A stretch of 11,683 nt of DNA from a bacterium (GTDB lineage Bacteria; Spirochaetota; Spirochaetia; Treponematales; Rectinemataceae). Below, in pieces: positions 7,015 through 11,683 of the stretch; positions within the stretch are counted from its first letter, which is position 1, and each line of letters begins with the position of its first letter. Made by a program: the position numbers and the translations under genes. The notes under the pieces were generated by a model. It saw only the letters and a list, made by a program, of their open reading frames with translations. It did not search any database and had not been told where the DNA came from. Location: NCBI GenBank assembly GCA_021813065.1, contig JAKALZ010000031.1, forward strand, positions 1 to 11,683, written 5' to 3'.

Positions 7015-9000
7015 TCATTTTGTCGGGTCTTCCGCGTAGAAGTGCCACTTGCGGGCGAACTTTGTGCCGTTCCACCAGCGCTTTATGGCCGGAACGAGCC
7101 AGTAGTCGATGCCGAAGGATCGACCGAGGCCGCCGAGCATCAGAATCGCCGCGAACGCGAACCAGAGCTGGTTCCATGCGAACATGCCCGACATGGTAAA
7201 CACGATGCACATCACGATGCTCGCTGCCGCGGCGAGCCATGTAAAACAGCCACCGAAGATCGCGAGGCCGATCGCGATTTCCATGACGACGATCATCGTC
7301 TGGAAGAGCGTGAAGGGCAGATGCGCGAAGATGCCGTCCATGAAGGTGTGGCGGAACCATGTGACGATGCCGGAGTTCGGATCGAAGATCGGTTTTGTGA
7401 GGTCCCAGACAGCCTTGAAGGTCTGGGTGGCCGCATCGGTACCGCCGGTGGTCGCTGCAGGGGCCGCTGCCCCCGCGACAGCGCTCGCCGCGCTGGTCGC
7501 TACCACGGCTGGAGCCGCGGCCTGCGCCGCGGTTGCCGCCGCTGCGCCCGTACTCTGCAACGCGCTCGCGCCGCTCGTCGCTTCAGCGACTTTTACGCCT
7601 GCCTGCACCACGCCTGGCGAGAACATCCATCCGGACTGCGAGCCAGACCCGAATTTGAGCCAACCCTCGCCGATCTTGTTGATGCCCTCGAATACCCACA
7701 TGAGCCCTAGCCACATCCTGAGAAGGAGCGGCCAGTAGGGGCGGACCTTGTACGACGCGAAGTCGCCGATGATAGAGCGCCTGCCCTTCATGTCGAGGAA
7801 CTCGTGCCTGAGATACTCCCAAATCTGGTTGATGCCCGCGATATTCAGCAGGTAGTACACGTTGATGAGATGTTTGACTACGAGGGCAAAGAACCCTGAT
7901 GTCTTCATGCCGCCCGCGTTCGAAACGCCGAAGTGGCTCCCGATCGAAATCATAAAACCGTGGTAGTTCGGTTTGAACTGGTGGCGCTCGCCACCGTCGA
8001 TGTCGGAGATGATATTGTGCGCGACGGCTTCCGCGGTGAAGTGCGCGGTCTCGACGATCTGCGCAAGGGGCTTGCCCTCGAAAATAAGGCCGGAAATATC
8101 GCCGACCACGTAGACGTTCGGGTACTTGGTCGACTTGAGTTCCATGTCGACGTCGAGTCGGTTGCGCTTGCCCATGGGCAGACCGAGCTGTCCGGCGAAG
8201 CTCGAGCCCTTGACGCCGCAAGTCCAGATGAAAGTGTCGGTCTCGACGATGTCGCCGCTCTTGAGGAGCACCTTGCCGGGTTGGGCGCCGATGATGGCCG
8301 AATTGAGCATGACTTCGCAGCGGCGCTTCTGCAGGTAAGCTTCAGCCTTGGCACGCAGAGGCTCTTCAAGGATCGGGAGAATCGAGGGAAGAGCCTCGAT
8401 GTTGAGGATGCGGACTTCCTGCGGGTTGAGGAAGTATTTGCGGCACATCACGTCGCGGTAGTCGAGGAGCTCGCCGATCATTTCGATGCCGGTAAAGCCC
8501 GCGCCCGCGACTACGAAGGTCAGGAGCTTTTTGCGCTTCTCAACGTTCGTTTCGAGAGAAGCTTGGTAGAACTTCTCTTCGACGTGGCGGCGCACCTTCA
8601 TCGCGTCTTCGAACGACCAGAGGGTGAAGGAGTTCTCCGCGACGCCCGGTATGCCGAAGAATTCAGGCTCGGCGCCAAGACCGAGCACAATGTAGTCGAA
8701 ATCGTAGGTTCGCGTCGCTCCCGTCGCCTTCTTCCCCTCGAAGTCGACGCTTTCAATGGTATCGAGCGCGATATCGATCTTCTTTGCGCCGAAGATCTTT
8801 TTAAAAAGCACTTGCACGGATTCAGGCTCTGTTCTCCAGCCCGCGACTTCGTGCAACTCGGTCATGAGAGTGTGGAAAGGGCGCTTGTCGACAAGCGTAA
8901 TCTCGATATCATCCCGCTTGCGGAAATGTTTTTCGAGAATCTTCCCAGCCCAGACTCCTCCATAGCCGCCGCCGAGAATGAGAATTTTCTTTGTTGCCAT
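7015..9000 (-). CDS. Type II NADH:quinone oxidoreductase (NDH-2) fused to a C-terminal DoxX-like membrane domain
   Basis: A 661-residue fusion. Residues 1-415 form an NDH-2-type flavoprotein: FAD loop GGGYGG (10-15), NADH-binding loop GAGFTGIE (166-173), second FAD site VYVVGDISG (297-305), then AQIVETAHFTAEAVAHNI (313-330) and the hydrophobic membrane-anchoring segment VVKHLINVYYLLNIAG (374-389). Such enzymes pass electrons from NADH to quinone without pumping protons. Residues about 418-661 resemble DoxX: a first helix (421-441) with the pattern RMWLGLMWVFEGINK, and three more hydrophobic helices (about 565-583, 587-606, 610-628). A basic tail (KRWWNGTKFARKW) suggests a cytoplasmic end. Between helices 1 and 2 lies an Ala/Thr/Ser-rich insertion (463-525), predicted to be outside. 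ATG at 9000 gives MATKKILILGGG. Upstream in-frame starts, including 9015, lack homology and a good ribosome site, though that of 9000 (GGGG) is also weak. The polyprenyl synthase follows on the same strand. Confidence 0.9.
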   Translation of the reverse strand: MATKKILILGGGYGGVWAGKILEKHFRKRDDIEITLVDKRPFHTLMTELHEVAGWRTEPESVQVLFKKIFGAKKIDIALDTIESVDFEGKKATGATRTYDFDYIVLGLGAEPEFFGIPGVAENSFTLWSFEDAMKVRRHVEEKFYQASLETNVEKRKKLLTFVVAGAGFTGIEMIGELLDYRDVMCRKYFLNPQEVRILNIEALPSILPILEEPLRAKAEAYLQKRRCEVMLNSAIIGAQPGKVLLKSGDIVETDTFIWTCGVKGSSFAGQLGLPMGKRNRLDVDMELKSTKYPNVYVVGDISGLIFEGKPLAQIVETAHFTAEAVAHNIISDIDGGERHQFKPNYHGFMISIGSHFGVSNAGGMKTSGFFALVVKHLINVYYLLNIAGINQIWEYLRHEFLDMKGRRSIIGDFASYKVRPYWPLLLRMWLGLMWVFEGINKIGEGWLKFGSGSQSGWMFSPGVVQAGVKVAEATSGASALQSTGAAAATAAQAAAPAVVATSAASAVAGAAAPAATTGGTDAATQTFKAVWDLTKPIFDPNSGIVTWFRHTFMDGIFAHLPFTLFQTMIVVMEIAIGLAIFGGCFTWLAAAASIVMCIVFTMSGMFAWNQLWFAFAAILMLGGLGRSFGIDYWLVPAIKRWWNGTKFARKWHFYAEDPTK

Positions 9001-9188
9001 TTTGTGTGACCCCATTATTTCAAGATTCTGAAACAGTGCATTATGATACAACATTATCGATATTTTGGCTATAGATTTCCTTCTATTCCACAGATGCCGA
9101 TTATCTATTATGATGAGTTCCTCATTTGAAGGACGAAAAGTTGCCTTAGGGCACATTGGATATTTCATACTATAGGGAAGGATTGATC
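9001..9188. promoter_or_regulatory. Divergent intergenic region between the NDH-2/DoxX gene and the DEAD-box-like gene
   Basis: This AT-rich stretch separates two divergent genes and must hold a promoter for each. On the plus strand TACTAT (9168-9173) is a possible -10 box but has no good -35 partner. A small hairpin, TGCC-GGCA, lies near 9142-9153. No clear minus-strand promoter was found by eye. The plus-strand gene has a good ribosome site, AAGGA at 9178-9182, 6 nt before its ATG. Confidence 0.4.
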
Positions 9189-11063
9189 ATGGACGGATTC
9201 TTGAAGCGTACAGGGTACGCAGAGGATCAAATTCTTATTTCGTTCGCGAACCTTGTCGGCGACGCGTTTTTTCGTGAAGGCAAGGATATTCTTGTGAGCG
9301 ACGAGAGCCCTGAGTACAGGGCGCCGCTCATCGCCGCGCTGATCGAAAAATATCTGAGGGAAGCTCCCGCGCCGGTGGCGGGTCAGGGATCGGCGAGTTT
9401 GCCCGCGCGCGCCTTGGTTCTCGCGGGGCACCGCGAGGTGCTCGAGGCGCTTAAGAAGCTTTTTACCGAAGAGAGCATGGGGTGCGTCGTTCTTGAGTCT
9501 GCCTCGGAGCTGAGCAGTCTCGACGCGAAGATTCGAGACGCGCGCATCGTGGCAATGACCTCCGAGACGTTCATCGAGGCGGCTCAGGATGAGCGCCTTG
9601 GAACGAGGGAGTTTACGTGTATCGCGATCGAGGGCGCCGATACGCTGAGCGAACAGCCAACAGAGGTGCAACGAAAGATATGGAGCTGCCTGCTGCCGCC
9701 CTGGGAGCGTCGAACGCTGCTCTTCGCCACGCATGTGGGAATACGAACCAAGAACCTCGCGATCGATTTTGCGAACAACCCCACGACAGTGGTGCTCAAG
9801 AAGGCGCAAGCCGCGCTCGACGCGATATCGACCTCAGTGTACCGAGTGGCCTCGGATCGGAAATTCCAGGTCTTGCTCTGGCTCATCCAGGAGAGGGCTC
9901 GACAGGGGCATGCCGCTCTGGCGGTATTCTGCAACCTCCGCCAGACCTCGCGCGAGGTCGAGGCGCGACTCAAACTCAACGGCATCTCAGCGGAGCATAT
10001 TTCTTCCGCGGCTCCAAAACAGATCAACAGCGCGATTTTCTCGCGATTCGCCGCGCTTCAGAACAAGAGCTCAGAAGAGACGGCCACGGGCGTGAGCGCG
10101 ACACCAAGTACGACTGCGAATGCAATCGCGAATGCGACTGTCGACAAGGGCAGTCCCCTCGTTCTCTGCATTTCTAACGATAACCTCGAAGCGCTTCCGA
10201 ACGAGCTCGCGCTGGCCGGAATCCACTTCGATATTCCACTTGACGCGGATGTCTACCTCGAACGCGTTCGCGTCATGCGCGCGAAATCCGCCGAGATGGT
10301 AGGCCTCGCCTGCGAGCGCTACGAAGTCGGACTTTCCGCTATCACTTCACGGTTCGGCACTAAATTCGAACCGCTAGATCCGAGCGCTGAGATGCTCGCC
10401 TGTCCGGACGCGAGCGAGGGCGTACGTCTCGAACTCGAGCGGCCACGCCGCGAGGAGGAGGGGTGGTCTAGCGGTCCGCGCGGCGGTGGAGACGAGCGGC
10501 GGAGCTTTGATCGTGAGCGCCGAGATCAACGCGGACATGGCGATCGCCGGGGAGCGCGAGAGCAGCGCGCCGATTCTTTCTCGGATACGAGAAAACCGCG
10601 TCAAGAGAACAATTCTCGCGACGCGCGTCCGCGCGATGATCAGTTTAAAAGGCGGCGCGACGAATCGCGGCGCCCAGAGCGTCAGAATTCCGGAGAGAAG
10701 GCCAACGCCTCGCTCTACTCAATGAGCACCGAAGAGCGCCTCGCGTTTTTCCGCAATAAATATAAGGACATTCTGAAAACACCAGCATCAGGGCAAGGTG
10801 AAAAACAGGGAGAACGCGGGAAGGGCAAAAATTCCGCGAAATCGACTCAGCGCGGCGACCAACCAGATCGGCAGGTTGTTGCGAAACCTGTGGAAGCGCA
10901 GCCCGCGCCACAGCCTCGCGCACCAGCGTCCTCGGCGCCATCGCTTCCGCCAGAGCAGAACGAATCGTCAAAGGATGGCAGCGCGCAGGAGAATGGTGGT
11001 ATCGTGAAGCGATTCATCGACAGGCTGTTCTCCAGCGAGAAAGAGTCCGGCACGGATTCCTGA
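9189..11063 (+). CDS. DEAD-box RNA helicase-like protein lacking catalytic motifs, with an RG-rich C-terminal tail
   Basis: A 624-residue protein whose first 385 residues align by eye with the two RecA-like domains of DEAD-box helicases, but with every catalytic motif replaced. The Walker A place reads GKDILVSDESPEYRAPL (31-47) with no GxGKT; motif Ia is ALVLAGHREVL (75-85); DEAD has become EGAD (148-151); SAT has become ATH in TLLFATHVG (176-184). Motif IV survives as ALAVFCNLRQTSREVEARL (243-261). Motif V has become LVLCISNDNLEALP (324-337), and HRIGRTGR has become LERVRVMR (357-364). ATP hydrolysis is therefore unlikely. A low-complexity Thr/Ala linker (291-320) interrupts domain 2. Residues about 419-503 are rich in Arg, Gly and Asp (RGGGDERR, RERRDQRGHGDRRG) like RNA-binding tails. 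Then come a short predicted helix (511-529), a disordered stretch, and a terminal amphipathic segment (604-616). ATG at 9189 follows AAGGA by 6 nt. The glucan phosphorylase gene starts 48 nt later. Function is unknown; an RNA-binding scaffold is an inference. Confidence 0.85.
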   Translation: MDGFLKRTGYAEDQILISFANLVGDAFFREGKDILVSDESPEYRAPLIAALIEKYLREAPAPVAGQGSASLPARALVLAGHREVLEALKKLFTEESMGCVVLESASELSSLDAKIRDARIVAMTSETFIEAAQDERLGTREFTCIAIEGADTLSEQPTEVQRKIWSCLLPPWERRTLLFATHVGIRTKNLAIDFANNPTTVVLKKAQAALDAISTSVYRVASDRKFQVLLWLIQERARQGHAALAVFCNLRQTSREVEARLKLNGISAEHISSAAPKQINSAIFSRFAALQNKSSEETATGVSATPSTTANAIANATVDKGSPLVLCISNDNLEALPNELALAGIHFDIPLDADVYLERVRVMRAKSAEMVGLACERYEVGLSAITSRFGTKFEPLDPSAEMLACPDASEGVRLELERPRREEEGWSSGPRGGGDERRSFDRERRDQRGHGDRRGAREQRADSFSDTRKPRQENNSRDARPRDDQFKRRRDESRRPERQNSGEKANASLYSMSTEERLAFFRNKYKDILKTPASGQGEKQGERGKGKNSAKSTQRGDQPDRQVVAKPVEAQPAPQPRAPASSAPSLPPEQNESSKDGSAQENGGIVKRFIDRLFSSEKESGTDS

Positions 11064-11111: not shown

Positions 11112-11683
11112 ATGAAAATAGTATCGCATACCATTAAACCAAGCCTGAAGGGACGCCTCGCGCGGCTTGACACGCTCGCTAGAAATCTCTGGCTCTCGTG
11201 GAATTTCGACGCCGTATCGCTCTTTATCAGAATCGACAGCGACCTTTGGGCGGCATCTGGGCAGAATCCGGTTAAGATGCTGGGCATGCTGAGCCAAGAG
11301 ACCATCGATCAGCTGAACTCCGATCCCTCATTTCTCTCTGACCTCGATGAGGTTTACGCCCGCTTTCAACGCTATTTAAAGAATAAACCTTGGTATCGAG
11401 GTCCCCACGACAGAGTGATCGCCTATTTCTCGATGGAGTACGGGCTCGATGTATCGCTGCCCACGTATTCGGGCGGCCTCGGCGTCCTCTCCGGCGACCA
11501 CATGAAGACCGTAAGCGACCTCGGACTTCCGCTCGTGGGCGTGGGGCTCCTCTACCGACAGGGGTACTTCAAGCAATACCTCAACGCGGATGGGTATCAG
11601 CAGGAAACCTATCCCGAGAACGACTGGTACAACATGCCTGTGGAGCGCTGCGTCGATGCACAGGGTGCACCCATCCTCATCGA
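11112..11683 (+). CDS. glgP: Alpha-glucan phosphorylase (glycogen/maltodextrin phosphorylase), N-terminal part, cut by the window end
   Basis: Family GT35 phosphorylase, which releases glucose 1-phosphate from glycogen or maltodextrins with pyridoxal phosphate as cofactor. The first 190 codons are present. Residues 1-95 match the N-terminal segment typical of the shorter bacterial/archaeal type (LARNLWLSWNFDAVSLF, then DSDLWAASGQNPVKML). Residues 103-155 hold the highly conserved start of the catalytic domain: AYFSMEYGLDVSLPTYSGG, LGVLSGDHMKTVSDLGLP and LVGVGLLYRQGYFKQ, then NDWYNMP. ATG at 11112 is preceded by GAGG (11099-11102) with a 9-nt gap. The PLP lysine and active site lie beyond the window, so completeness cannot be checked. 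Only 48 nt separate it from the DEAD-box-like gene on the same strand and no terminator is seen there, so the two are probably co-transcribed. Confidence 0.95.
   Translation, partial: MKIVSHTIKPSLKGRLARLDTLARNLWLSWNFDAVSLFIRIDSDLWAASGQNPVKMLGMLSQETIDQLNSDPSFLSDLDEVYARFQRYLKNKPWYRGPHDRVIAYFSMEYGLDVSLPTYSGGLGVLSGDHMKTVSDLGLPLVGVGLLYRQGYFKQYLNADGYQQETYPENDWYNMPVERCVDAQGAPILI

Follow-up and report, generated by a model that had tools for sequence, protein, structure and literature searches.

A DEAD-box helicase relative with replaced catalytic motifs, found in two families of Treponematales

The 11,683-nucleotide stretch analyzed here (the window; contig JAKALZ010000031.1) comes from a bacterium of the Rectinemataceae (Treponematales) whose assembly, GCA_021813065.1, comprises 2.0 Mb in 325 contigs and is about 70% complete. 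Judged from named relatives, its genus is Rectinema or lies beside it. On the forward strand, the window carries a gene for a 624-residue protein (P0001) that has the layout of a DEAD-box RNA helicase with no catalytic motif intact. The original prediction, made from the sequence alone, took it for a pseudo-helicase, a reading borne out by the predicted tandem RecA fold and by motif loss across a clade.

The gene and its helicase core

The gene and the parts of its product are the following:

9174..9182, + strand: ribosome-binding site AGGGAAGGA, read in the sequence, ending 6 nucleotides upstream of the ATG
9189..11063, + strand: pseudo-DEAD-box gene, 624 amino acids, an open reading frame with homologues in protein searches
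9189..9803, + strand: RecA-like domain 1, residues 1–205, from AlphaFold (most blocks above 90) and a fold search
9294..9323, + strand: P-loop place, VSDESPEYRA for AQSQTGTGKT, from alignment; helix predicted from residue 41
9630..9641, + strand: motif II place, EGAD for DEAD, from alignment
9726..9734, + strand: motif III place, ATH for SAT, from alignment
9825..10418, + strand: RecA-like domain 2, residues 213–410, from AlphaFold (most blocks above 90 except an insert near 301–320) and a fold search
10167..10199, + strand: motif V place, CISNDNLEALP for VATDVAARGLD, from alignment
10260..10283, + strand: motif VI place, ERVRVMRA for HRIGRTAR with the first Arg retained, from alignment
10440..10703, + strand: Arg-rich disordered linker, net charge about +8, from charge and low predicted local distance difference scores
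10713..10763, + strand: tail motif 1, LYSMSTEERLAFFRNKY, common to the active paralogue; the most conserved region, with a helix predicted at 514–524
10998..11033, + strand: C-terminal amphipathic helix GIVKRFIDRLFS, from hydrophobic moment, with a helix predicted at 605–613

The frame is uninterrupted from the ATG at 9189 to the stop at 11061–11063. A TTG start at 9156, given in the list of open reading frames, is unlikely, because nearly all relatives begin at the Met encoded at 9189. The region first singled out, 9189–10358, takes in residues 1–390 and most of the two RecA-like domains, but the gene continues with a disordered tail.

By profile comparison, the similarity to DEAD-box helicases exceeds chance. 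The RhlB and eIF4A models match the window protein with E values of 2.7e-11 and 3.4e-7, and in a profile-profile comparison, a kind of search that the original prediction had proposed, the pseudo-helicase profile matches that of its active relatives at E 1.6e-32. The Pfam DEAD model gives 14.6 bits, below its cut-off of 26, and for that reason Pfam was set aside as sole judge. The predicted structure contains two tandem RecA domains, as in active DEAD-box proteins; in a fold search, RecA1 of DDX20 and of DDX47 superposed at 2.6–2.7 Å over 187–190 residues. The Walker A pattern is absent from the rest of P0001, which rules out a hidden P-loop elsewhere in the protein; among 122 degenerate homologues it matches in nine, never at the motif I place. 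The definition of a pseudohelicase framed for Utp25 includes a helicase fold with lost motifs, both of which the window protein has by prediction and alignment, together with demonstrated inactivity and a needed function, of which the low dN/dS given below would be an indirect sign.

Residues were counted in 123 proteins of at least 450 amino acids, pooled from two protein searches; 122 are degenerate, and the remaining, active one (P0128) was left out of the counts. The helicase layout is kept in the window protein, as had been read from the sequence; YRA, EGAD, ATH, NDNLEALP and ERVRVMR stand for GKT, DEAD, SAT, TDVAARGLD and HRIGRTAR. At the Walker A place no degenerate protein has the Lys, and 113 of the 122 carry Arg. 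The Glu of motif II is kept in two and replaced by Gly in 105, and its final residue is acidic in 121, the last having a gap there. None has the Thr of SAT; all 122 have Lys, Arg or His. The Arg of motif V survives in three, with Glu in 78. In motif VI (HRxGRxxR), the second Arg is found in 0/122, with Met in 78; the arginine-finger position is gone. The first Arg (R359) is invariant (122/122), contrary to the claim that the arginines of motif VI are all lost. "Every catalytic motif erased" is likewise right in that no motif is intact and too strong with regard to R359 and the acidic end of motif II. The His and Gly positions of motif VI hold an acid-base pair in all 26 Rectinema-type proteins and a base-acid pair in 77 of the 96 others. 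Half-lost forms were not seen in this set, bar the two copies with the motif II Glu. Read from the alignment, the pattern is one of replacement rather than erosion.

RNA binding by the core appears unlikely because most or all members have lost the residues with which motifs Ia, Ib and V contact RNA: Arg is kept in 20/122 at motif Ia and in 0/122 at motif Ib. The suggestion that the protein is kept for RNA binding therefore loses ground for the core, although the disordered tail, mildly basic with a net charge of +10, could bind RNA.

Distribution, selection and neighborhood

The first protein search returned 27 homologues and the second 100 more, one of them the active helicase. An order-wide scan gave matches, active or degenerate, in 89 of 146 genomes. 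Reading the motifs identified a degenerate copy in 24 of 30 genomes of the window's family, 9/10 in its genus and 15/20 outside it; for one genome (G092) only part of the gene is present in the data. In a second family (f4), degenerate and active copies occur together in eight genomes read (G004, G008, G011, G015, G026, G041, G073 and G085). The four motifs checked (GKT/S, DEAD, SAT and HRxGRxxR) are intact in 120/120 relatives of an active cousin, the best 120 of 6085, and none is intact in the window protein. Another active helicase, L052, is truncated by a contig end before the tail.

The profile for the active copies (A1) misses some of them (e.g. in G064), so their absence from Rectinema was checked by reading the strongest DEAD-box matches. 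Among the twelve strongest in seven genomes, no active tail-motif helicase was found; G000, G068 and G080 had no strong DEAD-box match among the matches listed. The active twin thus seems, from these matches, to have been lost in Rectinema, and we judge the remaining DEAD-box helicases there to be RhlE-like.

The ratio of nonsynonymous to synonymous rates (dN/dS, Nei-Gojobori), one of the checks originally proposed, lies well below 1: 0.18–0.36 in eight pairs of pseudo copies and 0.12–0.42 in seven active DEAD-box pairs, with dS near or above 1 in several pairs. These are whole-gene values, as a false N-terminal extension in the rows for L046, L060, L073 and L082 shifted the core/tail border. 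At seven Rectinema-type loci the pseudo-helicase is 38–55% identical to that of the window and the neighboring genes 74–93%. Because dN/dS is low and identity falls short of that of the neighbors, the gene is constrained yet fast-changing.

In a maximum-likelihood tree, from which supports were read unrooted, the 28 pseudo tips form one clade (support 100), and together with L076 they separate from the active copies (support 98). L076 (G030:C39), another degenerate DEAD-box protein with the tail motif, sits on a long branch, and its gene is not beside ndh2 and glgP; it may have lost activity independently and is excluded from the clade statement. Rectinema and the L029 group form one clade (support 88).

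The window runs from the end of a dnaK-like gene through dnaJ, a heavy-metal-binding protein, a P-type ATPase (copper-type by resemblance), a zinc dehydrogenase, a polyprenyl synthetase and ndh2 to the pseudo-helicase and glgP, as assigned by Pfam; ndh2 and glgP are our own labels. The two flanking genes are:

7015..9168, - strand: ndh2, type-2 NADH-dehydrogenase-like (Pyr_redox_2 by Pfam), divergent from the pseudo-helicase; upstream in 19/32 pseudo loci
11112..11683, + strand: glgP, start of an alpha-glucan (glycogen) phosphorylase (DUF3417 and the beginning of Phosphorylase by Pfam); downstream in 24/32 pseudo loci

At least one of the two flanks the gene in 27 of the 32 pseudo loci and in none of 25 active loci, whose flanks are short. 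L090 and L091, the former barely detected by the profile and the latter missed by it, both have ndh2 on one side and glgP on the other. These two genes are far apart in G012 and G042, single-contig genomes from another family. The simplest reading is a duplication into the ndh2-glgP spot before the two families split. L090, L091 and L093 (f4 genomes G004, G011 and G061) are pseudo copies whose RecA core has diverged almost past recognition; L090 retains tail motif 1 and the C-terminal helix, together with a stretch like motif 3. Beyond its Pyr_redox_2 domain, the ndh2-like gene of the window encodes a linker rich in Ala and, at the C-terminus, a hydrophobic stretch.

The shared tail

The original prediction did not mention the motifs of the tail, nor that an active paralogue has this tail too, nor that glgP is often adjacent. 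Among Rectinema-type proteins, the 17 residues of tail motif 1 have a mean identity of 87%, compared with 58% for RecA1; the linkers are hardly alignable. A looser core pattern is present in 116 of 127 pseudo and 100 of 120 active proteins, and a stricter one in 18/26 Rectinema-type, 88/96 other pseudo and 19/25 active proteins. Searching the PDB with the motif gave one match, at chance level. The C-terminal hydrophobic moment has medians of 0.61 and 0.62 in two pseudo sets and 0.62 in the active proteins, compared with 0.40 in eight other DEAD proteins; it beats shuffled sequences (p<0.05) in 17/26 Rectinema-type, 18/23 other pseudo and 15/25 active proteins and in 0/8 of the other DEAD proteins. 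The predicted helix may resemble membrane anchors of the MinD type. Tail motif 1 and the predicted C-terminal helix are common to the Treponematales tail-motif DEAD-box proteins and the window protein.

A third tail motif (IRKSISEATGG) is found in 87/127 pseudo copies, none of them Rectinema-type (0/26), and in only 1/120 active proteins. That one (P0129, the same as L077) was the sole basis for regarding motif 3 as ancestral, an idea we dropped; the search in its own family covered that one genome only.

Proposed role and alternatives

We give a little better than even chances to the window protein being a conserved, non-catalytic paralogue of an RhlB/CshA-like DEAD-box helicase that works as a docking or anchoring subunit. 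A long-tailed helicase would have been duplicated in the ancestor common to two families of Treponematales. One copy would have stayed active, and many of these genomes still have it; the second would have come to sit between ndh2 and glgP and lost its ATP-site and RNA-groove residues but retained the pair of RecA domains, the docking motif of the tail and, at the C-terminus, the amphipathic helix. This helix may rest on the inner membrane, the tail motif may hold a partner also held by the active helicase, and the inert RecA pair would supply a protein surface. RNA-handling enzymes might in this way be gathered or regulated, most likely around membrane-bound RNase Y. What the analysis establishes is the homology, the fold as predicted, the loss throughout the clade with its fixed replacements, the synteny, the low dN/dS and the common tail; membrane binding, the common partner and the place in RNA decay are inferred.

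RNase Y scores above cut-off in 25 of the 30 family genomes, and a further one has large pieces of it; RNase E/G was found in none of the 30. PMC5289998 describes RNase Y degradosomes as bound to the membrane, with a DEAD-box helicase and glycolytic enzymes among their components. A membrane-tethered inert helicase cousin would fit as a docking subunit of such a complex. The degradosome-like scaffold suggested earlier would agree with the motifs of the tail, with the amphipathic C-terminus and with a background of RNase Y without RNase E.

Several observations weigh against the docking proposal. Six of the 30 family genomes yielded no degenerate copy. Clear RNase Y is absent from four (G014, G029, G080 and G084), three of them more than 90% complete. 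Since no active tail-motif helicase was seen in Rectinema, sharing a partner with it cannot be what the protein does in that genus today. The amphipathic helix is predicted, p<0.05 was missed by 9/26 Rectinema-type, 5/23 other pseudo and 10/25 active proteins, and L075 seems to be without the helix. As for the position of the gene, the glgP link is lacking in 8/32 pseudo loci, and slow rearrangement could account for the link itself; in the f4 genome G045 the pseudo copy is at least 13 kb from both neighbors, and in G049 and G030 ndh2 and glgP are non-adjacent, which argues against a strictly fixed place.

A tentative and rather doubtful variant is that the ATP site was rebuilt rather than lost. 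Charged replacements fixed on either side of the cleft would lock both RecA domains in one permanent state: Arg in place of the P-loop Lys, a basic residue where SAT has Thr, Glu at the position of the motif V Arg, and in motif VI an ion pair whose sign swaps between lineages. The protein would then be an ATP-independent, membrane-tethered clamp or dock that organizes RNA handling, a partner of the active twin and its replacement in Rectinema. That the core binds RNA without ATP, as an RNA chaperone or RNA-binding pseudo-helicase, which was the main reading of the original prediction, seems unlikely: the Arg-rich tail and a fold that is that of RNA-binding proteins speak for it, but the contact arginines counted above are mostly gone and the core has a net charge of -10. 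Activity through an unusual ATP site is very improbable. The Walker Lys-to-Arg change is conservative and fixed, and a few members (e.g. P0029) still score above the Pfam DEAD cut-off; yet the Gly-rich loop is replaced and predicted helical in the window protein, and the motif II Glu, SAT Thr and second motif VI Arg are almost or entirely absent. A decaying pseudogene is scarcely credible and was rejected on dN/dS: although the gene is the fastest-changing of its block, the copies read have open frames, residues are invariant and its place is frequently fixed. The earlier argument from the 624-codon frame and the good ribosome site agrees with this.

The neighborhood raises the quite unlikely possibility that the gene is co-transcribed with glgP and controls its expression or docks the enzyme. 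The same-strand glgP downstream, its presence beside the very diverged L090 and L091, and a 48-nucleotide gap with no terminator-like site in the window favor this. However, a promoter-like site overlaps the glgP start, ndh2 is a nearly equally stable neighbor, gaps are about 100–270 nucleotides in several other loci and reach about 1.1 kb in L038, and where glgP is missing some loci are cut by contig ends but others (e.g. L034, L036 and L075) have different genes. We hold it decidedly unlikely that the protein regulates its active paralogue in a mixed complex, perhaps via motif 3. This motif, nearly confined to the pseudo copies, occurs in 13/13 of those from genomes with an active copy versus 1/13 of those without; because Rectinema and the L029 group form one clade, however, the correlation amounts to about one loss event, and the window's genus shows no such paralogue.

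The pseudo-helicase family can be set beside two known proteins, compared here by description. Utp25/Def (PMC9539457) is a eukaryotic DEAD-box-like pseudohelicase with vestigial motifs, a disordered extension and a proposed origin by duplication; it differs in being a component of the small-subunit processome with its disordered region at the N-terminus. Deinococcus radiodurans PriA (PMC4504706) is a bacterial helicase homologue in which binding roles were kept while ATP hydrolysis and unwinding were lost, but it is a DNA replication-restart protein outside the DEAD-box group and an orthologue of active PriA, not a duplicate. Helicase pseudoenzymes are few: PMC9539457 calls Utp25, to its authors' knowledge, only the second proposed. 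We found no report of a bacterial DEAD-box pseudohelicase in the open-licence PMC literature. A bacterial family of more than 100 members, with fixed replacements and, in some of its genomes, an active twin alongside, makes it testable what a DEAD-box fold does once it no longer burns ATP.

The nearest RhlB/CshA-like proteins, the Treponematales tail-motif DEAD-box proteins, share the tandem RecA fold and the order of elements and are often named "ATP-dependent RNA helicase RhlB" by JGI. Many of the degenerate homologues P0032–P0122 carry the same public name despite their lost catalytic motifs, and for the pseudo-helicase family such automatic names are misleading.
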